This document shows, piece by piece, positions 1,814-37,642 of a stretch of DNA of 64,000 nucleotides. The DNA is taken from assembly GCF_023277745.1 (NCBI RefSeq), contig NZ_CP086322.1:7998001-8062000 (forward strand), read 5' to 3'. Under the pieces are notes generated by a model that had not been told where the DNA came from, did no database searches, and saw nothing but the letters and a program-made list of their open reading frames with translations. Origin of the DNA: Streptomyces halobius (lineage in GTDB: Bacteria > Actinomycetota > Actinomycetes > Streptomycetales > Streptomycetaceae). Position 1 is the stretch's first letter; every line of letters begins with the position of its first letter. The position numbers and the translations under genes are program-made.

Positions 1814-4800
1814 TCACTGCGGGGAGAACACAGTCTGGATCAGGCGGTTGGGCGTGCCCCTGCGGATGAGGACACCGCGGCCCGGCGGCTGCTGGGAGGC
1901 GTACACCCCGGGGAACAGCTGGCCTTCGCCGCGGTCACCTGCCATGAGGAGGGCTGAGGATCCCGTCTCGCGCAGGCCCTGGACGAGGGGTTCGTAGATG
2001 CCGCGGGAGGCGCCTGCGACGCGGCGCGTCAGGACGAAGTGCAGGCCGATGTCGACCGCGGAGGGGATGTAGGGCAGGAAGGGGGCCAGGGGTTCCTGGC
2101 CGGCGGTGGTGAGCACGTCGTAGTCGTCGACGAGGACGACGATCCGCGGTCCGCCGCCCCAACTGCCCTGCTCCAGATCCTGGAGGCCGGCGGCATCATC
2201 GGGCAGCCGCTGCTCCAGCACGGTGGCGATACCGGTGGCTAGGCCCGCGCACAGCTTGGCGTTGTACGCGTAGCCGCCGTTGAACTCCTTGGGGATCGCG
2301 CCGCGCAGGCTTCGTCGGGGGTCCATGACGGCGAAGACCAGCTCGTCCTCGCTGTAACGCTCGATGAGGGCGTGGGCGATGGTCTTAAGGAGGTTGGTCT
2401 TGCCGCATTCGCTGTCGCCCATGATCAGCAGATGCTGGTCATGCTGGAACAGGTCGAGCAGCACGGGTTCGAGCCTCGTTTGGTCCAGGCCGATTGGTAC
2501 TCGCTGGGGTTCGGCGGCTGGGCCTGGCAGGAGGTGGGGCTCCAGGACGTGTGGCAGCACGCGTACCGGCTGGGCGACCTCGCCGCTCCAGGTGGCGCGA
2601 ACCGTCTTGGCTGCTCGCTCCAGGACCGCGCCGAGGTCTGCGGTGTCGGCGAGGGAGTCCGTGCGGGGAAGTGCGACCTGCGCGAAGAGTTTGCTGTCAG
2701 TCAGGACGCGGCCGGGCTCGTCGGGCGAGAGGGTCTTGGCGAGGTTGTGGTCGATGCTGGATTCACTGGGGTCGTTGAGCCGTAGCTCGATTCGGGTGCC
2801 GAAGTTCGACTGGACGGCGATACGGACGTCGTTCCAGCGGAGCATGCTCGCGACGACGTGGATGCCGTAACCGCTGCCGCGTTTGAGGATGTCGGCGATG
2901 TCGTCGTCGAGGTCCTCGAAGTCGTCGCGCAGTGCGCCGAAGCCGTCGATGACGAGGACGATCTCGGCGCCAGCTGCGGCAGCCGGCCCGCGGCGTGGAG
3001 GGTACGCAGCTGCTCGACGGAGTCGATGCCGTGCTGGCGGAAGAGGTCCTCCCGGGCGGCGAGCATGGTGCGTACTTCGTCGACGGTGCGGGCGGCGCGT
3101 TCGCGGTCGGCGCGGCCTGCGATGCCGCCGACGTGTGGCAGCCCCGACAGGGCAGCCAGTCCTCCGCCGACCAGATCGAGGCCGTAGACACCGACCTCCT
3201 GCGGGGTATGGGTCAGCGCGAGGGAGAGGACGAGGGTGCGCAGGAGGGTGGTCTTGCCGGACTGGGGGCCGCCGATGACGGCGGCGTGGCCGCCCGCCAC
3301 TGTCAGGTCGAGGTACCACTGGCCCTGCCACTGCCTGGCCGGATCGTCGAGCAGACCGAGCGGGACCTCCAGCGGGCCGCGCCGCTGGGAGAGTTGGACA
3401 CCGCGCGGGCCGACGTCCAGGGGGCCTGCGACCGTGTCCAGGGCTATCGCATCGGGCAGCGGGGGTAGCCAGATGCGGCGCACCGGACCGGCAGCGTGGG
3501 TCAGCTGCTCGACCATGACGCCCAGCTCGGTCGGCCCCATCTCGCGGCGCCGCACCGTAGGCTCCTGCGCGTGCGCATCCTCCTCCGCGGAACGGGTGTT
3601 GAGGGCGTCATAGGGGAGAGCGAGCGGCCCGCTGTCCTCGTCCTCCGGGCGTTGCACGGGGCCGCGGTAGGCGCCCGAGACATAGCTTGCCTTGAAGCGG
3701 TCGTAGTGGCTGGTGTCGACCTTGAGGTAGCCGAATCCCGGCAGGGGCGGCAGGTGGAAGGCGTCCGTGGTGTCCAGGACCGTACGGGATTCATCGGCGG
3801 AGAAAGTCCGCAGGCCCAGCCGGTAGGACAGGTAGGTGTCCAGACCCTTGAGCTTGCCGCCCTCGATGCGCTGACTGGACAGCAGCAGATGCACCCCAAT
3901 CGAGCGGCCGATACGACCAATGGACAAAAACAGGTCGATGAAGTCCGGCTTGGCGGTGAGCAGCTCGCCGAACTCGTCGATGACGACGAACAGATGCGGC
4001 AGCGCCTCCAGATCGGGACGTTTCTCGGCGCGTAGCGCGGCGTAGTCACCGATGTCGGCGATGTTGCCCGCGTCCTTGAGGACCTGCTGGCGGCGCTTGA
4101 CCTCACCGGCCAGCGAGGCGTGGACGCGCTCGACCAGGCCGGCCTGGTTCTCCAGGTTGGTGATGACACCGGCGACGTGCGGCAGGTCGGCGAATGGCGC
4201 GAAGGTCGCACCGCCCTTGTAGTCGATGAGGACCAGGGCGAGATCCCCGGGCGGGTGGGTGGCCACCAGGGCGAGGACGAGGGTGCGCAGGAGTTCCGAC
4301 TTCCCGGAGCCGGTTGCGCCCACACACAGGCCATGCGGGCCCATGCCGAGCTCGGAGGACTCCTTCAGGTCCAGCAACACCGGCTCGTGGGAGTCGTTGA
4401 TGCCGATGGGGACGCGCAGGAAGGCACGTTCGCCGCGCGGCGCCCACAGGCGCGACACGTCAAGCTGCGCCATGTCGTCGATGCCGAGCAGCTCGGCGAA
4501 GTCGACCGGTCCGGTCAGGGGGGCGTCCGCCAGCGACTCGGCGGACAGACGCAGCGGCGCCAGCATCCGGGCCAGGCCCTCGGCGAACGCGGTGCCGACC
4601 TCATCCACGGTGCCGTGGGCGCTGACCGGCTCCTGCTCGCGCAGGTCCTCGATGACCACCTTGTCGCCGTCGACGGTGATCCGGACGCTGATCTGCCCTG
4701 GCTCTTGGACCCGCTGTTCGAGCAGGTGCAGGACACTGACCCCCATCTCCCGTAGCCCGACCGCCTCGTCGGGACGCGGCAGGTCCACGGCGTCTTCTCC

Positions 4801-5784
4801 GTGGCCGTCGGCGACCACGAGCAGCCGGGACGTCATCGACAGCGCGTCATTGCCGGACAGGCCACGCCGCACCTCGGCCGCATAGGAGGCACGGCGGCGC
4901 AGTTCAGGGCCGAGCTGCCGGGCCAGCTGGGGCGCGGAGGGGGCGATACGGCGGGCGGCGACGGGCCCGTCGAACTGCTCTGTGTCGAGCAGATGCGGCA
5001 TCCACTTGGCCCACTCCCATTCCGTGAGCCGATCCCCAGGCACCGCGAGCCCCACTGCCACGTCATCGGGGGCATGCAGGGCAGCAGCCTGGATGAGCAA
5101 GGCGCGCACAACGCGCAGACAGTCCTCGCGAGGGCCGATGACGCTGACATTGCCGACGCGGTCAAGCGGAACGGTAAGGGGGAGTTCGGTTCCGGTGCGG
5201 AAGCGCGCCATCAGCGCCGACGCCTCATTGAGCATGAAACGGTCAGGCGGAGTAAGAACTGACGACCCCTGCTCGGCGATCTGCAGATCCCGTACGGGCA
5301 TCTCGCCAGTACCGACCCGCACACGCAGGAAGTCGCCATCGACCCGGCGGCGCTCCCATAGGCGAGCCGGATCACGCACGATGTCATAGAGAGCGGGAGG
5401 CGGCGGGTTGAGGACATCGGCGCGCTCGCGCCGCTCGCGTTCCTCGGCAGCGAGCTCCTCGCGCAAGTCCTCTAGATAGGCGAGGTACGCCTCGCGTTGG
5501 GTGCGGCGGGTGCGCTGGGCCTTGCCGCGCTGCGAGAAGACGAGGACGACGGAGCCGATGACGGTGACGACGAGGATGATCGCGCCGAGCGCGGCGAACT
5601 GACTGTTGCGCACTACCGTCATCATCACCACGGACGACATGACACCGGCGACCGGCAGCAGCGACATCGCGATGTTGCCCGCCTTCCCCTCGGGGAGGTT
5701 GGGCGGGGCCTCGATGACGCGCGCCTCGGAGGCGGCCGGAGGACGGGTGGTCCGGGCCGGGCGGTGTATCAGTCGGGTACTCAT
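1814..5784 (-). pseudogene. eccC: EccC, FtsK/SpoIIIE-type T7SS ATPase, with a frameshift
   Basis: EccC is the membrane-bound motor of type VII secretion. The 5' frame starts MSTRLIHRPARTT, has hydrophobic segments near residues 40-85, and carries Walker A motifs GATGSGKSE (about residue 490) and GGPQSGKTT (about 840). The frame is lost at about 2966-2973, just before the Walker B strand of the second ATPase domain. Translation resumes in another frame as EIVLVIDGFG and runs through a third, divergent Walker A (GDSECGKTN) to the stop at 1814. Adding one base gives a continuous protein of about 1,320 residues with the three ATPase domains expected of EccC. It lies 35 bp downstream of the ParA-like gene. 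The lesion is either a real inactivation or a sequencing error; everything around it looks conserved. Confidence 0.9.
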
Positions 5785-5819
5785 CGTCGTCCGTCATTCA
5801 CGATCGGGCTCGGCATCGG

Positions 5820-6998
5820 TCAGTGACGCTTCTGGGAGAGGGAGAGCTGGAAAACGTCCGCGGCGAGGCGGGCAGCGGCTTCCCTGGTCGGGTGAGCCAG
5901 CAACTCCGTATGGACTGCGCCACCGGCCGCCAAATGCCGGTCATACGGCAGAACCTGGACGCTTGCCCCGGTGGACTTGAGCCCCTGGGCAGCTGCGTCA
6001 AGATCGAGCCCGGAGTTGGGCACCAATTCGGTGAGCACGACGACCGTGCCGGCGATCACATGCCGGGGGAGCCCCTGCATCCACTGCAGCACCGCATACG
6101 TACTGGTGACGCCCTCCGGCGTGGCGGGCGCGGTCAGAACACGGCCATGCGCGGCGGCGAGCGCGACCCGCGCGACCTCGGCGGGCAACGTCTCGCAGTC
6201 GATGATCATCACACCGAAGTAGCGGCGCAGCGCCACCACGGCCCGCTCATACGCCCGACTGTCCAGCATCACACCGATCTGCCCCTGGCTCGCAGGCAGC
6301 AACCAGGCATTGTCGGGAAGCTGGACGAGATAGCCGGTGACATCGAGCAGCGACATGTCCGCCTTGACGATGTCCGCGATATCGCTGGTCGTCCAGCGCC
6401 GGCTCCCGGCGCCGAGCCGCAGCGGCAGCGAGCCGAGCGCCGGATCGGCCTCCAAGAACAGGACCGGATCCTGCCGGTAGTGCGCATACGTGGTTCCCAG
6501 CAGCGCGGCAACAGTCGACTTGCCGGACCCGCCCCGGATGGAGGTGATGGCGATCTGCCGACCCGTCGTCACCGGCTGCTGCAGCACCGCAGCGGTGCGG
6601 GTGATCTCGGCGACCTCGCGCGCGGCTGACGAGGAGAGCGTACGGCGCAGGGCACGTGTGGCACGCGCCGCGAAGGACTCGCCGTGCCGCGGCTTGCTGC
6701 GTAGCGCACCCGCCAGGCCCTCGTCCACCACAGGGCGGGAGCCGGGAGCGCTCTGGGGCTGAGGACCCGGGGCATACGCGGCCGGGGCCTGCTGCTCCTG
6801 CCCCTGATACGGGTAGCCGGCCTGCTGTGGCGCGCCACCGCCATGTGCGGCGTCCGGCGTCTGGGTGCCCTGCGAAGACAGCTCCGGACGCGACGCGGAG
6901 GCGCTGTAAGCCTGCCCACTGGGGCCCTGAGCCCCCTGCTGGGCGCCGCTCCTCAGGTCGCGCAGCACATCACCCTGCCAGCCGTCTCCGTTCGGCAT
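5820..6998 (-). CDS. ParA/MinD-like ATPase of the T7SS cluster
   Basis: A 392-residue protein with a Gln/Pro/Ala-rich disordered N-terminus (about residues 1-115) and a C-terminal SIMIBI-class ATPase domain. The P-loop reads IRGGSGKSTVAALLG, and FLEADPALGSLPLRLG and IIDCETLPAEVA follow in the expected order for Walker A' and B regions. Such MinD-like proteins (EspI-like) are known in actinobacterial ESX loci and are thought to regulate or position the apparatus. A good ribosome site (GAGGAG) precedes the ATG by 5 bases. It sits between eccD (62 bp upstream) and eccC (35 bp downstream), so it is almost certainly co-transcribed with both. Confidence 0.8.
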   Translation of the reverse strand: MPNGDGWQGDVLRDLRSGAQQGAQGPSGQAYSASASRPELSSQGTQTPDAAHGGGAPQQAGYPYQGQEQQAPAAYAPGPQPQSAPGSRPVVDEGLAGALRSKPRHGESFAARATRALRRTLSSSAAREVAEITRTAAVLQQPVTTGRQIAITSIRGGSGKSTVAALLGTTYAHYRQDPVLFLEADPALGSLPLRLGAGSRRWTTSDIADIVKADMSLLDVTGYLVQLPDNAWLLPASQGQIGVMLDSRAYERAVVALRRYFGVMIIDCETLPAEVARVALAAAHGRVLTAPATPEGVTSTYAVLQWMQGLPRHVIAGTVVVLTELVPNSGLDLDAAAQGLKSTGASVQVLPYDRHLAAGGAVHTELLAHPTREAAARLAADVFQLSLSQKRH

Positions 6999-11290: not shown

Positions 11291-12428
11291 CGCGCACTCG
11301 CGGAGCTGGGAATCCGCTGAGCATGTGTACCCCGAAGGTGGCCTCGATGACCTGACGGCAGCGGTCACTGCCGTCGAGGGTGAGATGGCCGTACCGGTCC
11401 ACCGTGATCTTGATCGAGCTGTGGCCCATCCACCGCGACACCTCGTGGATGGGCACACCGTTGCTCAGGGTCACGGTGGCCCATTTGTGCCGGAGGTCGT
11501 GCGGGTTGTAGTCGGGAAGGCCGAGGCGTTTCAGTGCCCGGTCCCAGGACTTACGGAAAAGATCCCGGTAGGTCATGCCTCCAGCCTGATTCCGAATGGG
11601 CAGCCTTTCGGCAATCGGCTCCAGGGCGGCGGGCGCCGGTATATCGCGCCATTCGCCCTCTTTTCGATGCTTCAAGGGAGCGTAGAGGGCAACGTACTTG
11701 CCTGAGGAATTCTTGATACGCACAACCTGCCGCCGGCAACGCAACGTGCCGTCGACGATGTCCTCTGGAAAGACTCCCAGCGACTCGCCGATACGCAATC
11801 CACAGCACGCCATGAGCCACACAGCAGGCTCCAGGCGTGGTCCAATCTCTTTGGCCAAGGCTGAAATCTCGTCGAAGCTGGGAAGCGTCCTCTCATCCAC
11901 TTGCATGACGGGGTTGGCAGGCTTCTCAGCCTGCTTGACCGGATTCTCGCGGATCCTCTTGTGACGAGCCGCGTGAGAGAACATCCCCGACAGAGCAATG
12001 CGACGGGAATCTATCGTGTTGGGCATCGCGCCCTGCCGACGCCAGAGCGCGTACAGCTCCTCCACGTCGGCCGCAGTGACCTGGGAGATGGCCTTCTTAC
12101 CCAGCCGGGGGAGGACGTGAAGACGCATGATGCGCTCGTAGGACTCCTCCGTGCCGGCCGCCATGGGCTTCAGAGCGAGCCAGTCGGCCGCATAGCGCCG
12201 CACCGACACCTTGCCGGCAGAAGGATCGACGTAGCTGTTCTCCCGTTTGTCGTTCTCCATCTTGGTGGCGAAATCCACCGCGTCCTTCTTGCGGTCGAAC
12301 GACTTCTCACGCTGCCGAGCGCTACGCCCACCGGGCTCCCGGTACCGAACGAGCCATCGCTTGCCGGGCGCACCAACGCCTTTGTCTACTACCGTCGCCA
12401 AATCCGTGCCAATCCGTCCGAGCGTCAC
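11268..12428 (-). CDS. int: Tyrosine-recombinase integrase
   Basis: A 386-residue phage/ICE-type integrase. The N-terminal part (KRWLVRYREPGGRSARQREK) is an arm-binding AP2-like domain and is followed by a SAM-like core-binding domain. The catalytic domain shows the first Arg in LMACCGLRIGESLG, then HDLRHKWAT (His-x-x-Arg), RWMGHSS (His) and the nucleophile Tyr in ITVDRYGHL, so it looks catalytically complete. Start is GTG at 12428 with GGGAAG about 9 bases upstream. It lies upstream of xis on the same strand, with phased repeats between them, and was presumably responsible for insertion of the element carrying it. Confidence 0.88.
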   Translation of the reverse strand: MTLGRIGTDLATVVDKGVGAPGKRWLVRYREPGGRSARQREKSFDRKKDAVDFATKMENDKRENSYVDPSAGKVSVRRYAADWLALKPMAAGTEESYERIMRLHVLPRLGKKAISQVTAADVEELYALWRRQGAMPNTIDSRRIALSGMFSHAARHKRIRENPVKQAEKPANPVMQVDERTLPSFDEISALAKEIGPRLEPAVWLMACCGLRIGESLGVFPEDIVDGTLRCRRQVVRIKNSSGKYVALYAPLKHRKEGEWRDIPAPAALEPIAERLPIRNQAGGMTYRDLFRKSWDRALKRLGLPDYNPHDLRHKWATVTLSNGVPIHEVSRWMGHSSIKITVDRYGHLTLDGSDRCRQVIEATFGVHMLSGFPAPRVRGAELVLA

Positions 12429-12834
12429 CGACGAGTCTTCCCGCCAGGGTGTGTAGTTGTAGCTCGGAATTCCGGCCGCGCCAAATGTGGGCTCGGGTTG
12501 ATGATTTGGCTACGCGGCAACTTGAATGCCCTCGCTGGGCATCGCTCCATGCTCCGAAGGTTGCGCCGGGTCTTCCATCACCCCGTCGCAGAGCACGGCG
12601 CCGGTTTCAGGTATCTTTCCGACGGACTCGACCTTCAGTCTCCTGGGAATTAGGGTTCAGGCAATTCAGCTTTCACCGTGTCACGCGGGTCCCTCGATAC
12701 CCCGTCTCCGATACCTGAGCCCGGTCACCGATTTCCTGGCATTCTCTGGTCCCTTCTCCGTTTCCGGATGAGGTAAGCCATCAGACCCAAGAATCTCCCT
12801 CCAAATTCTTCCCGACTGAATCGGGGATACGACA
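12429..12834. other. Non-coding 3'-flank of group II intron A and int upstream region
   Basis: About 400 bp with noticeably lower G+C than the surroundings and no credible frame. Read on the minus strand it has many purine runs and GTGAAAG-type motifs reminiscent of structured RNA, for example around 12600-12760. I could not assign it to a known RNA. A short CCCGA/TCGGG hairpin lies just 3' of the intron junction (about 12810-12830). Confidence 0.35.
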
Positions 12835-12897
12835 GTGAGGTCGACCCGGAGCGCGGTGCTGGCCTCGCGGCCAGCCCGTTTCTCCGGGTCGCCTCCC

Positions 12898-12933
12898 GAA
12901 CCCGGCGTGCACCGCTAAGCGCACCGGGCTCTC
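12898..12933 (-). ncRNA. Domain V of group II intron A
   Basis: The 36-base catalytic hairpin has complementary arms GAGAGCCCGGTGCG and the matching C-rich strand ending GCCGGGTTC. It lies 27 bp downstream of the maturase stop, the usual position for domain V. Confidence 0.75.
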
Positions 12934-12960
12934 CACAAGTCCCGTGGGTTTGTGTTCACC

Positions 12961-14379
12961 TCATGCTGTGCTCGGCCACGGTGTCGGGATGCGTGTTCCC
13001 CGGTAGTAGTAGCGCTTGGCGCTTACCCTTGCCGGGTCGAACAACTCCACTCCATCCGCGGCGGGCCAGATGCCGTAGCGTCGGCGTAGTACCTTCCAAG
13101 GAACACGCCTGTGCTTGCGCTCCTGCCATCTGACGATCTCCTTCCAGAGATAGGCCCTCAGATAGCTGAATGTCGCATTCGAGCATCCGTACTTGAAGTA
13201 CGCGGTCCATCCCCGCAGCATCCGATTGAGCTGATGCAGCAGGTCTTCGAGCGGCAGGTTCGTGCTCCGCCGGCAGATCGTCTTCACCTTGGCCATGACG
13301 GCCACCAGGGCCTTCTTGGCCGGATAGACGTAGACGTACTGCTTGCCGGTGCCTCGTTTCCGGTGGCGCTGGATGCGCCAGCCGAGGAAATCAAGACCCT
13401 CGTCGACGTGGGTGATCAGAGTCTTCTCCGGAGAGAGGCGCAGGCCCATCGTGGACAAGACCCCTGCGAGCTCTTCCCGCAGGGCTTCGGCGTGCGCCTC
13501 GGTGCCCGAAACGAGCAAGCACCAGTCGTCTGCATACCGCACAAGGCGGTAGTTCGGCAGACCTTGTCGGCGTCGCTTGGCCCTTCCATACGGGCTGGCT
13601 CCGGGCCCACCTGGCCCTTGGGCGACATGGTCGTCCAAGACCGAGAGAGCCACGTTGCTCAGCAACGGGGAGAGAATCGATCCCTGCGGAGTTCCGGCAT
13701 CGGTATCCACCAGCGTGCCGTCCTCATCGAGGATGCCCGCCTTCAGAAACGCCTTCACCAGAGCCAGGATGCGTTTGTCTCCGATACGTTCCCGCACCCG
13801 GTCCATAAGGGCAGAGTGTGAGATTTCGTCGAAGCAGGCTTTGATGTCACCCTCAACAACCCACTCGTATGAGCGGGATGCGAAATGGTGCACCTCGGCC
13901 ACTGCATCGTGAGCCCGGCGGTTCGGACGGAACCCGTAGGAGCACGGGCGAAAATCCGTCTCGAAAATTGGCTCCAACACCAGTTTCAAGGACGCCTGGG
14001 CCACCCGGTCACGGATGGTCGCGATCCCCAGATAGCGGACCTTGCCGCCAGCCTTGGGAATCGCGCGTCGTCGCGCCGGAAGGGGACGGAAGGTGCGGGC
14101 CTTGAGATCTTCCCGCAGTTCCTTCAGAAACCCCTCCAGCCCACGCTCGGACTCAATGTAGTAGGCGGTTTCCCCGTCTACCCCTGCCGTGCGCGTGCCC
14201 TTGTTGTTCCGCACCCGATCCCAGGAAACCAGCAGAAAGCCTGGGTCGGCAACGAGGTTGTGCAGATCATCGAACCTGCGATGAGGGTCGTCATTGGCCC
14301 AACGGTGCAGCTTGGTCTGGATCTCCAGTACCCGGCGTTCCGCCTTGAGTAAGGCGTATTCCAGTTCGTCGGTATTCAC
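12961..14379 (-). CDS. Group II intron A maturase/reverse transcriptase (no endonuclease domain)
   Basis: A 472-residue protein from a GTG at 14379 with GGGAGG 6 bases upstream; a TTG one codon earlier is less likely. Reverse-transcriptase blocks are in order: RPLPARRRAIPKAGGKVRYL, CSYGFRPNRRAHDAV, GDIKACFDEISH, GTPQGSILSPLLSNVAL and the catalytic YADDWCLLVSG near residue 288. The X/maturase region contains LLHQLNRMLRGWTAYFKYG. It ends soon after RGTRIPTPWPS without an HNH endonuclease domain, so it would need another priming route. The protein splices and mobilises its host intron. Intron B lies immediately upstream of its ribosome site. Confidence 0.9.
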   Translation of the reverse strand: MNTDELEYALLKAERRVLEIQTKLHRWANDDPHRRFDDLHNLVADPGFLLVSWDRVRNNKGTRTAGVDGETAYYIESERGLEGFLKELREDLKARTFRPLPARRRAIPKAGGKVRYLGIATIRDRVAQASLKLVLEPIFETDFRPCSYGFRPNRRAHDAVAEVHHFASRSYEWVVEGDIKACFDEISHSALMDRVRERIGDKRILALVKAFLKAGILDEDGTLVDTDAGTPQGSILSPLLSNVALSVLDDHVAQGPGGPGASPYGRAKRRRQGLPNYRLVRYADDWCLLVSGTEAHAEALREELAGVLSTMGLRLSPEKTLITHVDEGLDFLGWRIQRHRKRGTGKQYVYVYPAKKALVAVMAKVKTICRRSTNLPLEDLLHQLNRMLRGWTAYFKYGCSNATFSYLRAYLWKEIVRWQERKHRRVPWKVLRRRYGIWPAADGVELFDPARVSAKRYYYRGTRIPTPWPSTA

Positions 14380-14486
14380 CAACGTCCTCCCGGCATTCCA
14401 GTGTCCGTACTGCTGACTTGCTGGCCCCGTGAAGTAGGCCGCCGGCGAGGTGCCCCAGCGGGGTCCTTTTCCGACGGCCCCTTCCC

Positions 14487-14523
14487 GAACCGGGCATGCG
14501 ACTTATCACCGCACCCGGCTCTC
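14487..14523 (-). ncRNA. Domain V of group II intron B
   Basis: A 37-base hairpin with arms GAGAGCCGGGTGCGG and GTCGCATGCCCGGTTC. The stop codon of the intron-encoded protein (TGA at 14508-14506) lies inside its 5' arm, so the coding region overlaps the ribozyme core. Confidence 0.75.
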
Positions 14524-15035
14524 CAGTGCCCAATTCCGCGAGCCCTGCCGGTCGGTGCGTCCATTGTGGATTTCACCGTGGCAGTCGCGGCAGACTACGA
14601 GGGTCTTGCGGCGACGTGATGCCATCCGCTGTGCCCACTCAGGCTGTTCAGCCTGATCCCGGGTAGGGAGATCTTCCAAACGTCGAATGTGATGCACTTC
14701 GACGTCTGTATGCGCTCGGCAGAGCTCGCAGCGACTGGACATGAGCCGGTCGATGAGCTCCGCTGGTCGCTGTCTCCATACAGCCGGGAGTTCGTCTCTG
14801 AGGATTACCCTCGTGGTCCTGCGCGCCAGAGGTACCCCGCCCCAACGGGCGACCAGCGGTCTCTTTCCGGCACGTTCGACTGTGACCTGTAGCCCTCTGC
14901 GAGGACCTCCAGGAGTTTGCCAAGTCGCCCGGAAACGGTTCCAGATCTTATTGACGCTGAGCTTGTTCTTGTGCCCCAGCGTCTTGAACCGCCCCGGGTG
15001 ATGTGGAGGCTCGATTCCATGTAAGGATCAGAGTC

Positions 15036-15362
15036 ATGGCACGTCCCTCCTCCTACCCGCCCGAGCTCCGCAAGCGTGCGGTGCGCATGGTCGCGGAGAT
15101 CCGCGGTGACTACCCGACCGAGACCGCCGCGATGAACGCGGTGATGCAGAAGCTGGGCATCGGCTCACGCGAGACGCTGCGCAAATGGGTCAAGCAGGAC
15201 GAGATCGACTCGGGCAGGCAGCCAGGGACGACCACCGAGGAGGCCGCACAGATCAAGGCCCTGAAGAAGGAGATCGCCGAGCTGAAGCGGGCGAACGAGA
15301 TCCTCAAGGCCGCGTCGACTTTCTTCGCGGCCGAGCTCGACCGGCCACACACACGCTCGTAG
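15036..15362 (+). CDS. IS3-family OrfA (transposase helix-turn-helix subunit)
   Basis: 108 residues from MARPSSYPPELRKRAVRMVA. It has an N-terminal helix-turn-helix (ETLRKWVKQDEIDSG) and a C-terminal leucine-zipper-like coil (IKALKKEIAELKRANEILK), the standard OrfA layout. It binds the element ends and dimerises. The end overlaps orfB, which lies in another frame, so the active transposase is expected to be an OrfAB frameshift fusion. Confidence 0.9.
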   Translation: MARPSSYPPELRKRAVRMVAEIRGDYPTETAAMNAVMQKLGIGSRETLRKWVKQDEIDSGRQPGTTTEEAAQIKALKKEIAELKRANEILKAASTFFAAELDRPHTRS

Positions 15363-16288
15363 CGTTCGTCGACGAGCACCGGGACCGCTTCGGCGGCGTC
15401 GAGCCGATCTGCACCGTGCTGTCCGCGCACGGTGTCAGCATCGCCCCCTCCACCTACTACGCGGCGAAGAAGCGTCAGGAGAAGCCCTCCGCCCGCGCGG
15501 TGCGCGACGAGGTGACAAAGGAGCTGATCACCGAGGCCTACGAGGCCAACTACCGTGTCTATGGTGCCCGGAAGGTCTGGCGGCAACTGCACCGCCAGGG
15601 CCACGCGGTGGCCCGCTGCACCGTCGAGCGGCTGATGCGCGAGCTGGGCATCGCCGGCGCCGTCCGCGGCAAGAAGGTCATCACCACCATCCCGGAGCCG
15701 ACGGCCGCGCGGGCGCCGGACCTGCTCGACCGCGACTTCGTCGCGAAGGCCCCGAACCGCACCTGGGTCGCGGACTTCACCCACGTGGCCGCCTGGAGTG
15801 GCACCGTCTACGTCGCCTTCGTCGTGGACACCTTCTCCCGCCGCATCGTCGGCTGGGCCGCAGCCACCACCAAACACACCCAACTCGTCCTGGACGCACT
15901 GGAGATGGCACTGTGGCAGCGCGACCGCGACGGCCACCGACCCGGCGCAGGAGAGCTGATACACCACTCCGACGCGGGCTCGCAGTACACATCGTTCACG
16001 CTCGCCGAGCACCTGGACGCGGCCGGCATCGCAGCCTCGATCGGCTCAGTCGGGGACGCGTATGACAACGCGCTCATGGAGTCCACGATCGGCCTGTTCA
16101 AGACCGAGGTGATCAAGCCCCGGCGGCCGTGGAAGACGCTGTCGCAGGTCGAGCTGGCCACCGCCGAGTGGGTCGACTGGTACAACCACAGCCGCCTCCA
16201 CGGTGAGCTCGGCCACATCCCGCCCGCCGAATACGAAGCCAGCCACTACCAAGCAACCACGAAACCCCAGGTCACAACCACCATCTGA
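15341..16288 (+). CDS. IS3-family OrfB (DDE transposase catalytic subunit)
   Basis: About 315 residues with an HTH_21-type region (RVYGARKVWRQLHRQGH) and an integrase core holding the DDE triad: Asp in WVADFTHVAAW, Asp in HHSDAGSQYTS, Glu in NALMESTIGLFKTE. It ends a few bases inside the right inverted repeat. There is no clear independent start codon; the coordinate marks the frame overlap with orfA and expression is probably by ribosomal frameshifting. Confidence 0.88.
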   Translation, partial: PATHTLVAFVDEHRDRFGGVEPICTVLSAHGVSIAPSTYYAAKKRQEKPSARAVRDEVTKELITEAYEANYRVYGARKVWRQLHRQGHAVARCTVERLMRELGIAGAVRGKKVITTIPEPTAARAPDLLDRDFVAKAPNRTWVADFTHVAAWSGTVYVAFVVDTFSRRIVGWAAATTKHTQLVLDALEMALWQRDRDGHRPGAGELIHHSDAGSQYTSFTLAEHLDAAGIAASIGSVGDAYDNALMESTIGLFKTEVIKPRRPWKTLSQVELATAEWVDWYNHSRLHGELGHIPPAEYEASHYQATTKPQVTTTI

Positions 16289-18670
16289 GCTCTCTACCGA
16301 ACCCGGGGCGGTTCATCTTGCCCAGAGACCGTTCCATGACGTACCTCAGCGAGCCGAGGCGGTGCCGGTTGTAGGCCAGCTGGTAATACTCTGCGATTCC
16401 CCGGAACTCCGCCTGGTACCGCGCCACGATCTGAAAGTTCGAGTCGTGGACACGTTCCAGTTTGGCGGCCGGTTTGCCGCGTCGCATGTAGGGCTTGCGC
16501 TTGGCGCGCACGACATCCATTGGCACCTTCAAGCCGATCTGTCCGTTGATGGACCTATGGCCGTGTCGGTTGCGTTTGGCGTCGTTGTGGTGGACCACGA
16601 TCTCGTAGCCGAGGAAACGAGCGGCTCGTGTCCGCCCATGGGTGATCAAGGTCTTCCGATCAGAGAGTTCCAGCTTCAAATGATTCCGCAGGAATCTCCC
16701 GATCAGTCCCTTGATGTTCTCGGCTTCCTGCCTCGTCCCGGAGAATCCGAGCAGCCAATCGTCCGCATAGCGGACGTAGTGCAGCCGCCGGAAACCTGAA
16801 TCGTTTGGGTCACGCGAGGGAAGTCGTTGCAGCTGATGGCGCAACTGCCGTGCTTCCTCCCGCCGTCCGCGCTTCTCCAGTTTCCAAGCTGCCTTGTGTA
16901 TCCGCATGTACGGCAGATACGGCTTGCGTCGGGCGCCCCGGTTGAAGACAGGCAAGAGCGTTGTCTCGACGTACTTGTCCAAGCGGTCCAGGTAGATGTT
17001 GGAGAGCAGTGGGCTCAGAACACCCCCTTGTGGCGCACCACTCAGTGTTTCGTGATAGCGCCATTCCTCCAAGTATCCAGCCTGGAATAGCCCGTCGATC
17101 AACCGTAGAAAACGGTTGTCGTGAATGTCTTCGGCTAAGATGGAGCGCAGTACCCCATGATCCAGCCGGTCGAAACACTGGGAGATGTCTCCCTCGACGA
17201 ACCACGTTACCCCGCCCCACGACTCGGAAACTTCCGCGAGTGCTGTGTGACAGCCCTTCCCTGGCCTGAAACCATGGGACCGATCGGAGAACTGCGGCTC
17301 GTAATACGCCTCCAGCAGAGAGCGGATCACTTCTTGCAGCAGCTTGTCCGACCACGAAGGCAGACCCAGAGGCCGGCGCTTCCCTGGTGTTCCTTTCTTC
17401 TCGATGTATACGCGCCGAACCGGGGTCCACCGATACCGCTCATGTCGCAAAGCATCGATGATCGTCTGAATTTTCTTCAGACTCATACCATCCACGGTCT
17501 CTTGGTTAGAACCGGGTGTCATAGAGCCATCGTTGCGGTAGATCTTGCCGTAGGCCCGCAAATACAACTCCGGGTTGAACAGGTGCCGGTACAGTCTCTC
17601 CAGTGGAAATCCTCTCTTGCCGCGTTCGTGGATGATCTCCATCAGGGCTTCGGCTCTCTGCATTACGCGTACCTTGCCTCTCCGGATATCGTGGACACCT
17701 GTGCCACTTGGCCCTGTAAGCGGCTCTCCCGCTCTCCTCGGTGGGGCGTTACTCCCACGACTACTATTGACACTCCGTCACCATAGGGCTCGCGCCCCTT
17801 AGGTGATCCCGAATTCCTCTTGCATTGGACGTATCGAGCGTGACGTAGGCGGCCTGTCCGTTCCCTTGAGTGAGCTCGTTGCTCACCGTCCACCAGCCGG
17901 AAGGGTTGGGGCGAAGCAAAGGGGATTCGCCTGATGCTGATGACTCCGCTCCGGGCGTTGTATGTCGGAGGATGCACATTTCCATCCCTGGGAACTTGGC
18001 TTCAAACAGTTTGGTCTTCGCCATATCACACGGACTTTGCGCGGCAGCGCCATAAACGCCTTCACAACGCTCCACGCTTTCCCGCCATGCTGTTGTCCCC
18101 TCGCGCTTTCGCGTCCAGGTAAGGCGGGTAGTCCAGAGGCTTCTCCTTCCGAACCTCTACTCTCTGCGAGAGTGATCCAACGCCGAGTTAGACGGCGCAA
18201 CTTCGCCATGTGCGGACCTCTCGTCCGCTCCGACTACTACGGGGCCTCCGCCCCATCCCGCACCTTCGACGGACGACGCATCTATCCCACAGCTCCGAAT
18301 GGCTTTCGGATCGCGGGAGCGATGCGGGATGGTTCCCGTGTTCACGGTGAATCGATCGATCAGTCCGGCATCCAGCTTTGCCCCGGCAGCATCGCCACGG
18401 TTACGCCGCAGGCTTTCGCCGTGGCCTCCCCACCGACACGCCAAGTCAGCTACGGAGTCATCCTGCCAAATCGGCAGACTGTGCACTGCAACCCGGCCCA
18501 TATCCACCAGATTTGAGCCGGTGCCACGCTTACGGAGCTTTACCACTGATTCCTCTCGTATGCCCTCTGATCTCGCTCGCCGGACCCGGCCCGTCTGGCA
18601 GTTCCGAGCCGTCCCGGCTTTGTCAGCGCTGCTTCCCGCCCTTCCCGGCGTCTCCCGGGTCGGACTGCGC

Positions 18671-19480
18671 TCAGCTCCCACCAGGCTGCTGCGACAGCCT
18701 GGCGAGGAGGTCTTGCACCTCCTTCGATTCACCGCGCCTCACGGCGCACAGGCGCCTCATGGCGCACTGGAAGCGGTCAGCGACCTGGAGAGCTGTCGGT
18801 GCCCCGGTTCTGGCGCCTTCAGCAAAGAACGGGGCACGATCGCGGCAGATCACCTCGATCTCCGGTCGTTCGCTGAGCCAGGCTGCGAGCGTCTCTGCTT
18901 CTCGGTCAGGCAACAGGTCCACGGGGCGGCCGGTCTCGACGTCGACCAGCACGGTTCCGTAGACCTGGCCCTTGCGCATGGCGTATTCGTCGACGCCGAC
19001 TACCCGCGGAGTCCGCGGCTGTGGCTCCGGGAGGGCGTCGACCAGCCGCAACACCGTGCTGCGGCTGACCGAGATCCCGAAGACGTCCGCGATGCGGGCG
19101 CCGGCCCGGCCGGCGAGAGCGAGGCCGACCTCGGCCAGTGCCGACCGCAGCCGTTCGGTCCACCGGCTGTAGCGGCGGGTCAGCCCCGGGACCTGCTTGG
19201 CGAACGTTCGCCGTTCGCATGAGGGATCCGTGCAGGCGAACCGCCGGACGTGCAGACACAGCACCACCCACCGCCCCGCGCTCGGAAGGTCGGCAGGAAA
19301 CCGCAGGTAGGAGCCGTGCACCCGGCTCGACCAGGCTCCACAGTCCGGACACAATGCGCCAGCTGACCGGCATCTGATCCCAATGCGGATCGCCTCGCCA
19401 TGGTCTTCCGCCGACACCACCGCGACCTCTGGAGCCGACAGGAACAACAGCTCCTCCAGCTGGAGCATGACCTCGTTCAC
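18671..19480 (-). pseudogene. ISL3-family transposase, truncated
   Basis: 269 codons. The N-terminal half of an ISL3 transposase is clear: zinc ribbon [17 protein letters not shown] with [36 protein letters not shown], and the first DDE Asp in [16 protein letters not shown]. After LQVADRFQ the normal catalytic C-terminal half (about 250 residues) is missing. A short tail [15 protein letters not shown] ends at a stop next to the presumed 5' edge of intron A. Two 18-bp near-identical tandem units (GCGCCTCA[C/T]GGCGCACAG-like, about 18736-18771) sit at the break. The protein is not expected to be active. Confidence 0.8.
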
Positions 19481-29757: not shown

Positions 29758-29840
29758 GTCGGGTAGCCGGAGATCATTGCTGATCTCCGGCCCCCTCAGA
29801 ACCGGACGTGCAGCGTTAACCGCATCCGGCTCAAGCAAGC
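29758..29840 (-). mobile_element. Group II intron 3'-end remnant (domains V and VI)
   Basis: Domain V at 29799-29832 reads GAGCCGGATGCGGTTAACGC with a matching 3' arm GCACGTCCGGTTC, close to the bacterial consensus. Domain VI follows (GGCCGGAGATCAGCAATGAT region) and the end is CTACCCGAC at 29758. No maturase is attached: upstream DNA becomes a serine-recombinase fragment within about 95 bp, so only the 3' end survives. It differs from introns A, B and C. Confidence 0.7.
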
Positions 29841-35193: not shown

Positions 35194-35760
35194 CTAGTGA
35201 CGTGAGTCAGAGATTCGGTGGCAGTAGGCGGCGACTTTGTCGAGGATCTCGTCGGCGGTTTTGGTCCAGATGAACGGCCGTGGTTGGTCGTTCCAGTCGG
35301 CGAGCCAGGCTCGGATGTCGCGTTCGAGGGCCTGGACGGAATGGTGGACGCTGCGCTTGAGCTTCTTCTGCGTGAGTTCGGCGAACCACCGCTCGACCAG
35401 GTTCAGCCAGGACGCACTTGTCGGCGTGAAGTGCAGGTGGAAGCGCGGGTGCGCCAGTAGCCACTTCCTGACTGCGGGCGTCTTGTGGGTCGCGTAGTTG
35501 TCGAGGATCAGATGCACGCCGAGACCGGCCGGAACCTCCTTGTCGAGCGTGGCGAGGAACTTCTCGAACTCCACGGCCCGGTGCCGGCGGTGTAGGGATC
35601 CGATGACTTTTCCGGTTGCCACCTCCAGGGCGGCGAACAGGGTGGTGGTGCCGGCCCGGACGTAGTCGTGGCTGCGGCGTTCGGGGACGCCGGGCATCAT
35701 CGGCAGCACCGGCTGGGACCGGTCCAGGGCCTGGATCTGTTGGGTCGGGGACGGGGCGCC
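35194..35760 (-). pseudogene. IS630-family transposase, C-terminal half
   Basis: The minus strand encodes MPGVPERRSHDYVRAGTTTL, the strand HLILDNYATHKTPAV (second catalytic Asp), SASWLNLVERWFAELTQKKL (catalytic Glu in ERWF) and a normal end. Upstream of 35760 the sequence becomes the 3' end of group II intron C. The N-terminal half is not adjacent on the other side because another IS has removed it. Confidence 0.82.
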
Positions 35761-36645
35761 GTGCGGCCTCTCGGCTGTCGGTTTCCCCGTCCCCGCCCGC
35801 CGAACCCGGCGTGCGGGTCATCCCCGCACCGGGCTCTCCACGTGATCCGATGGGTTTCAGCTGACGAGTTCGGAGACGTGCCCGACGAACGCCGCGTCGT
35901 CGTGACCGGTCCGGCGGAAACGAGCTCCGGCCGGGTCGACCTCGTCGATGTTGAACGGCGTGGCGATCTGCGCTCCGCGGTAGCGGTAACGCTCCACGTG
36001 CATCTTCGCCGGGTTGTAGAGGACCAGGCCGTCCTCGCAGATCCGGTCGGCTCCGTAGTAGCGCCGCCGGATCTGTTTCCAGGCCATGTGGGGGTGCTTG
36101 CGGCGGATCCAGTAGATCACCCGCCACCAGGCATACCAGCCCAGGTAGGCGAAGGTTCTCTTCGATGCGCCGTAGCGGAAGTACGCAGCCCAGCCCCGCA
36201 GGATCGGGTTGATTTTCCGCAGCACGTCCAGCAACCGGAGCGAGACAGCTCCTGCTCCTGTGGCCTCCTTGATCTTGTGCATCACTCGCGCCAAGGCGTC
36301 CTTGGACGGGATCGTCAGCACCACCTGACGACCGTCACCTCTGCGCCTGCGCTGGATGCGAAAGCCGAGGAAGACGAAACCCTCGTCGATGTGTGTGAGG
36401 TGTGTCTTTTCAACCGAGAGGGTCATCTTCAGCCTGTTGGCCAGCAGCTCGCCGATCTCCGTGCGGATGGTCTCGGCGTCGGACCGGGTGCCGGAGACCA
36501 GCACCACAAAATCGTCGGCGAAACGCACCAGCCGGAAGTTCGGCAGCCCCTTGCGACGACGGTGCTGCCGCCGCCATCCAGGGCTCATGTCCCCTTCCCA
36601 GATCCGGGCGAAGTGCCGGTCCAGGACGGACAGATAGATGTTGGG
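35761..36645 (-). mobile_element. Group II intron C, 5'-truncated, inserted in IS630 transposase
   Basis: Domain V is at 35802-35838 (GAGAGCCCGGTGCGGGGA and a matching ACGCCGGGTTC arm). Domain VI and the 3' end GCCGCAC fall at 35761, exactly where IS630 coding sequence resumes. The maturase C-terminal half is present. The 5' two thirds of the intron are missing because an IS3-family element begins at about 36643. Confidence 0.75.
35857..36645 (-). pseudogene. Group II intron C maturase/RT, N-terminally truncated
   Basis: Reading from the IS junction: NIYLSVLDRHFARIWEGD, LPNFRLVRFADDFVVLVSG (catalytic F-A-D-D), then the X domain KINPILRGWAAYFRYGASKR and end RGAQIATPFNIDEVD. RT blocks 0-4 are missing. 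Like intron A its protein has no HNH domain. The protein cannot reverse-transcribe. Confidence 0.85.
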
Positions 36646-37281: not shown

Positions 37282-37642
37282 GTCGCGCGGCACCTACGGA
37301 GCCCCGCGCGTGCACGCCGTGCTCAACCGGGAGGGCTCCGGGTGCGGTCGCCGCCGCGTCGCCAGGCTGATGCGGGCGGCCGGGCTCCAGGGCCGGCACC
37401 GCCGCCGAAGGCACCTGACGACGATCCCCGATCCCAGGGCCGCTACCCGGCCGGACCTCATCGTCCGGGACTTCCAGCCCGACCCCACCGAGCTGGATGC
37501 CCGCTGGTGCGGCGACATCACCTACATCCCGACTGAGGAGGGCTGGCTCTACCTGGCCACTGTCATCGACATCGCCTCCCGCCGCGTGGTCGGCTGGGCG
37601 ACGGCCGACCATCTGCGGGCCGATCTGGTCGCCAATGCCCTC
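37282..37642 (+). pseudogene. IS3-family OrfB fragment
   Basis: Encodes SRGTYGAPRVHAVLNREG, HLTTIPDPRAATRPDLIV and the first DDE Asp in WCGDITYIPTEEGWLYLATV. It breaks off after DLVANAL where an IS5-family inverted repeat begins at 37643. Its N-terminus is replaced by the IS110 stub. Confidence 0.75.

Follow-up and report, generated by a model that had tools for sequence, protein, structure and literature searches.

This locus raises the question of how mobile elements come to be stacked inside one another, and what decides where each of them lands. In the window, which is the whole stretch of 64,000 nucleotides analysed here from the 9.24-Mb, single-contig genome of Streptomyces halobius, an IS3-family insertion sequence (14985-16315) is enclosed by a group II intron, B (18200-14429), which is in turn enclosed by a second group II intron, A1 (18749-12835), the nest being read on the minus strand. 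The earlier note had described this nest of IS3 in B in A; it was confirmed and turned out to be one level deeper than claimed, as A1 itself interrupts another group II intron, C, between nucleotides 18 and 19 of the latter. The nesting itself, its exact junctions, empty sites, two sites reused across many hosts, the base-pair fit of introns to their sites, and a sister lineage were all observed, and they argue that stacked retrohoming of intron-targeting introns very probably built the nest.

Read downward from 19480 on the minus strand, the nest begins with the start of an ISL3-family transposase gene (18768-19480, by gene and profile matches), which is the 5' exon of C. After the TTCCA of this gene follow the first 18 nucleotides of C (GTGCGCCATGAGGCGCCT, 18750-18767), the 5' part of A1 (18201-18749), and B including IS3 (14429-18200; 5' TTGCGCC, 3' CTACTTCAC), delimited by its junctions and a match to RF00029. 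B ends at 14429, and from there A1 resumes (12835-14428) with the remainder of domain IV, including the maturase gene, and with domains V and VI. The continuation of C (12521-12834) is truncated at about 12521, where an integrase gene adjoins it. Judging by this truncation, the outer level is dead here. The segment that separates C from the integrase gene (12409-12518) recurs at 7898945-7899054 with 85% identity and is perhaps the attachment region of the element that shortened C. Elsewhere in the window, a domain V match (29758-29834, minus strand, RF00029, 54.4 bits), with no maturase recognised by eye nearby among open reading frames of at least 280 amino acids, probably belongs to an orphan 3' end from a further group II intron, and degenerate stretches resemble the end of A1 (35752-35857, 74%), its gene (36349-36549, 68%), and IS3 (37349-37599, 66%).

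The identity of C and the exact start of A1 follow from a comparison within the same genome. A similar second 18-mer directly precedes A1's own GTGCGCCGTGAGGCGCGG. In the L018 intron at 7.02 Mb, a like 18-mer continues straight into TGTCGTATCCCC, the sequence that follows A1 in the window, where the similarity to nucleotides 19-331 of the L018 intron amounts to 74% over 314 nucleotides; A1 thus lies between nucleotides 18 and 19 of C. A start of A1 at the first of the two tandem GTGCGCC motifs was rejected, as the first 18 nucleotides belong to the host C, and C is not an A-type intron itself, since it aligns poorly to A1, A2, and A3. The earlier note had placed the boundaries of A at 12835 and 18683, of which the former is exact and the latter falls 66 bases short of the true 5' end at 18749.

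Copies of A1 that lack B provide the empty state of the next level. In the same genome, 0.56 Mb from the window, both halves of A1 are joined at 8577393-8579506, with 1 mismatch in the 549 nucleotides before B and none in the 1594 after it. Five further B-less copies in three other genomes of the genus (two in G140, one in G352, two in G195) are 91-92% identical over all 2143 bases, and 24 more places are continuous through the B site at 68-74%; these counts from 392 evenly drawn genomes of the genus are lower bounds, as two candidates were scored per genome (A1 copy L125, the third in strain F001, came in addition). With B the junction reads GGCGAAG|TTGCGCC...CTTCAC|GGGGCCAG, and without it GGCGAAG|GGGGCCAG. 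The proposal that B and its insertion sequence separate the 5' RNA domains of A from its open reading frame, upstream of the presumed maturase ribosome site, thereby holds, and the region at 18.2-18.7 kb, which might have belonged to B or to a third intron, is part of A1, continuous with the 3' part in the B-less copies. A complete intron thus lies inside another whose continuous form is known, which makes the arrangement twintron-like.

Both inner introns carry features of their class, with one deviation. A1 has the ends GTGCGCC...CTCAC, i.e., a GUGYG 5' end and an AY 3' end, and pairs with its 5' exon through EBS1 and EBS2; its domain V (12895-12931) is a hairpin in the predicted fold that scores below the Rfam gathering threshold. 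Its maturase gene lies in domain IV (12961-14382, minus strand) as an open frame of 473 amino acids with a YADD motif (TIGR04416, 372.3 bits, cut-off 300), and its closest solved structure is 6me0, which we take to be that of TeI4h. For B, the covariance model RF00029 matches at 14429-14523 on the minus strand (54.4 bits, gathering score 40), with domain V at 14484-14521. Two domain V hairpins had been noticed earlier within a few bases of these positions (12898-12933 and 14487-14523), as had the two maturase genes and two GTAGTAGTC elements, which lie in A1 (18231-18246) and B (17757-17768). Of the two GUGYG 5' ends that had been sought, the one of A1 was found (GTGCG), whereas B starts with UUGCG in all seven copies. 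The B relative L054 has G where B has U and starts GTGCG; it is itself interrupted at nucleotide 327 by about 3.1 kb (2840-5930) with an open reading frame that looks like a transposase by eye. A first base other than the conserved G1, namely U, C, or A, was seen in the seven B copies, the hosts in L072 and L149, and L079, L092, L109, L100, and L122.

The maturase gene of B (TIGR04416 match at 16272-17663, minus strand) scores 252.7 bits, below the cut-off of 300, because it is cut by IS3 into a part before (16316-17663) and a part after the insertion (14506-14984), the latter with the HNH end (PF21368, 14506-14742, minus strand). IS3 itself lies on the plus strand with open reading frames at 15003-16288, ends at 14985 and 16315, and a 3-bp repeat, TCT, at 14982-14984 and 16316-16318; a 100% identical IS3 is found near both contig ends (20132-21463 and 9221296-9222626). 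Three uninterrupted B maturase genes exist in the same genome (L013, L014, and L015), each an open frame of 607 amino acids, and these could act in trans for the B broken by IS3. The maturase of B has Intron_maturas2 and HNH domains, and LtrA is its closest solved structure.

The position of A1 within C is not peculiar to this locus. Taken together, 24 of 27 copies of the A1 subfamily follow the 5' end of a group II intron, one follows a look-alike in a regulator gene, and two follow neither. Among the regions fetched (40 A-type regions of those located), all 12 copies of the subfamily, defined by at least 90% identity over the matched part, follow such an 18-mer, compared with none of 25 relatives at 65-76%. 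A scan for the A1 5' end in contigs of 84,980 species gave 17 matches, six of them already known; of the 11 new copies, eight follow an intron 5' end, L125 follows the look-alike, and L120 and L122 (Nonomuraea) follow neither. Plasmid records added four more copies, namely L135, L139, L149, and L137 from S. clavuligerus, in which the 18-mer is shortened. When equal exons are grouped, the 24 copies, which are not independent of each other, represent about 19 host sites, and those cut short reveal the 5' side only. Eleven complete copies have a 5' flank of this kind, and in 10 of them a significant match to group II domain I follows A1, in five starting exactly at nucleotide 19; L135 has no domain I match downstream of A1. 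For four filled sites a close uninterrupted host was found in another genome (L072/L109, L075/L104, L073/L077, and L126/L089). As L120 and L122 (the latter a remnant of about 90 nucleotides) are at unrelated sites and L125 is in a gene, the targeting is not absolute.

Those 5' exons that were identified belong to transposase genes, as would also be expected if the nest were a chance pile-up, i.e., random insertion in islands of mobile elements with accidental hits. Such accidents would not, however, strike the same nucleotide at about 19 A1 host sites and in seven of seven copies of B, against 0/25 and 0/15 among the respective relatives, and the probability left to this view is next to nil.

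The exon-binding loops of A1 fit the host 18-mer. For 27 A-type introns that do not belong to the A1 subfamily, the loops that align to TGGCGT and CGTGGC of A1 (within 18435-18444 and 18520-18533, respectively) reached score sums of 279 and 360 against their own 5' exons, compared with means of 108 and 188 (SD 18 and 17) in 300 exchanges of exons, none of which reached the observed sums; 9 of 53 rows had been dropped since the alignment failed at the loops. As pairing with the own exon is far above that with exchanged exons, the two loops are EBS1 and EBS2. In A1 they pair with host nucleotides 13-18 and 5-10, respectively, where GCCACG, GCCATG, and GCCGTG are all read by means of G-U pairs, and they fit 16 of 17 rows (three being repeats) with five or six of six pairs. 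L125 lies within an MmyB-like regulator gene (Pfam, 2.5e-42 across the joined flanks) at CTGCGCCACGAGACGTTG, where both loops form six of six pairs; a plain-gene site that fits both loops points to pairing, not shared ancestry, as the cause. For EBS1, A1's own 18-mer would give five of six pairs, as many as two of the host variants reach, and it begins none of the 24 hosts, which is at most a hint of self-avoidance.

A sister lineage with different guides was found in L136, L147, and L148. These introns are 83-86% identical to A1, differ from it in their loops, which fit a different 5' end, GTGCGACACGARGTCGC, and follow GTGCGACACGARGTCGCN in three of three cases. The loop at nucleotide 222, the same position as in A1, is CGTGTC and forms six of six pairs with host GACACG; the one at nucleotide 307 is TGCGAT in L136 and L147, likewise with six of six pairs, and has fewer in L148. 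The host 17-mer occurs 30 times in 150 genomes, compared with twice for a reversed control, and 7 of 15 places examined out of these 30 have a match to Rfam group II D1-D4-7 (RF02012) that begins 63-73 nucleotides after the first base of the 17-mer. Downstream of the sister intron in L136, an RF02012 match and 76% similarity (1.5e-76) to one such intron were found; downstream of L147 and L148, no clear match to a group II intron turned up. The sister lineage shows changed loops at a changed site, which indicates that the host was switched together with the loops.

B has a fixed site of its own. A scan for its 5' end (at most three mismatches, 392 genomes) gave six copies in three genomes, all at one site of other group II introns, and a plasmid remnant at the same site brings this to seven of seven copies that have a 5' end; among B-type relatives (20 B-type regions were fetched from a search that scored two candidates per genome and hence undercounts) the same 3' flank occurs in 0 of 15. 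A 114-nucleotide inner fragment of B with 90% identity was also found in G236, and a plasmid search for full B gave one remnant of 171 nucleotides among the matches looked at. B sits at the foot of a hairpin, presumably domain IVa, that lies between domain III and the host's maturase gene. The six bases that follow the site are exactly complementary, in 16 of 18 introns, to six bases that begin 46 nucleotides upstream (67-68 nucleotides in two introns), and six such sequence pairs occur (GGCCCC/GGGGCC, GTCGCC/GGCGAC, GGTCTC/GAGACC, GGCTCC/GGAGCC, GCCGCC/GGCGGC, and GCCGTC/GACGGC); two of the 18 have no exact complement. In the seven copies, the putative loops of B, assigned by eye, would pair with five or six of six bases of IBS1 and four to six of six of IBS2, the latter with only four in three hosts.

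Could the nest have arisen once and been copied whole, by a carrying insertion sequence or composite retrohoming, with gene conversion keeping B identical? Movement or duplication of whole units did occur for some copies, as L013 and L015 share an IS701-family 5' exon of about 440 nucleotides and the 3' side of A2 (98% over 1986 nucleotides). However, B is 99.95-100% identical among the hosts A1, A2, and A3, which are only 65-75% alike, so that B entered each separately; a B-less A1 exists, and in G186 the intron that B occupies codes for the same type of maturase as B does. We therefore assign a single origin a small probability. In L013 (own genome, 1.36 Mb), the IS701-family exon and 18 nucleotides of A2 precede a chimera in which B joins the 5' part of A1 to the 3' part of A2. 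This chimera matches what recombination between two copies of B would leave of a nest that had B in A1 as well as in A2, and apparently arose that way. It would also suit the view that the nests were built by homologous recombination between intron copies and not by reverse splicing. Filled and empty sites nevertheless differ by exactly one intron, and in L125 A1 occupies an ordinary gene, at a sequence that both loops fit, which makes that view very improbable.

Stacked retrohoming thus remains our preferred explanation, with reverse splicing, splicing, and a low cost of insertions being what we infer. First, C would have landed in the ISL3 transposase gene; A1, whose EBS1 and EBS2 fit the first 18 nucleotides of many group II introns, would then have reverse-spliced between nucleotides 18 and 19 of C; B, of another lineage with loops that seem to fit the foot of the hairpin preceding the maturase gene, would have reverse-spliced into A1; and IS3 would finally have entered the maturase gene of B. 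As each splicing intron restores its host, the insertions should cost little. Domain IV is dispensable for catalysis, and since B lies in the domain IV hairpin, A1 may splice with B still inside; the earlier claim that A splices only after B leaves is thus probably too strict. The departure of B would rebuild the hairpin. C, which is cut by A1 18 nucleotides from its 5' end, would need A1 removed first.

Going by where the examined copies lie, nearly always in introns and at one fixed position each, the lineages of both inner introns are parasites of parasites. We lean, by a modest degree, toward a further reading, in which A1 and its sister would be dedicated hyperparasites with loops matching the 5' ends of whole intron families, and B a second, independent one, giving a two-tier food chain of ribozymes. 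Tolerant G-U pairing would allow the 5' ends of the GTGCGCCRYGAGGCGCYN families (A1) or the GTGCGACACGARGTCGCN families (sister) to be read, which would open every member of these families to landing; B would be aimed at the hairpin ahead of the maturase gene, and a few changes of guide bases would suffice to switch a lineage's host. For mobile introns that home to the ends of other mobile introns, targets would be a renewable resource whose use is probably harmless, and the diagnostic signature GUGCG becomes a landing site. The filled and empty sites in several Streptomyces, together with two sister lineages with different guides and hosts, allow tests of whether ribozymes parasitise ribozymes, whether the splicing of nested introns is ordered, and how a lineage switches its host.

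Intron-into-intron homing is already known. Homing into intron open reading frames in Methanosarcina acetivorans was reportedly described by Dai and Zimmerly in 2003; in contrast, A1 homes to nucleotide 18 from the 5' end and B to a hairpin before the reading frame. The portions available of a review (PMC4424553) describe repeated site-specific homing of introns into introns in this archaeon, alike to the present case, with up to five nested, and insertion balanced by deletion through recombination between copies, similar to L013. The Trichodesmium twintron (Pfreundt and Hess 2015, PMC4649490) likewise consists of two distantly related group II introns with open reading frames; according to the available text, its inner intron lies in domain I, sequential splicing was shown, and it is one twintron in a host gene, with repeated targeting not described there. 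In the accessible parts of the open-licence PMC literature, subscription papers being outside the scope, neither a lineage that targets the 5' end of other group II introns nor a Streptomyces twintron was found; the pipeline of one study (PMC8919778) misses the outer introns of twintrons, as stated in its available section. The closest parallel is Thermosynechococcus elongatus, where, in the available portions of Mohr 2010 (PMC2882425), no homing to intron 5' ends is described, in contrast to A1, and the inner introns are ORF-less, whereas B encodes its own HNH maturase of 607 amino acids. According to the same portions, TeI3 likewise enters TeI4 at a fixed domain IV site, close to where the host maturase gene begins, TeI4h is active although its 5' base is U, one maturase gene is interrupted by an insertion sequence, and the inner copies are identical and the outer ones diverged, as here, for which separate entry was likewise argued.
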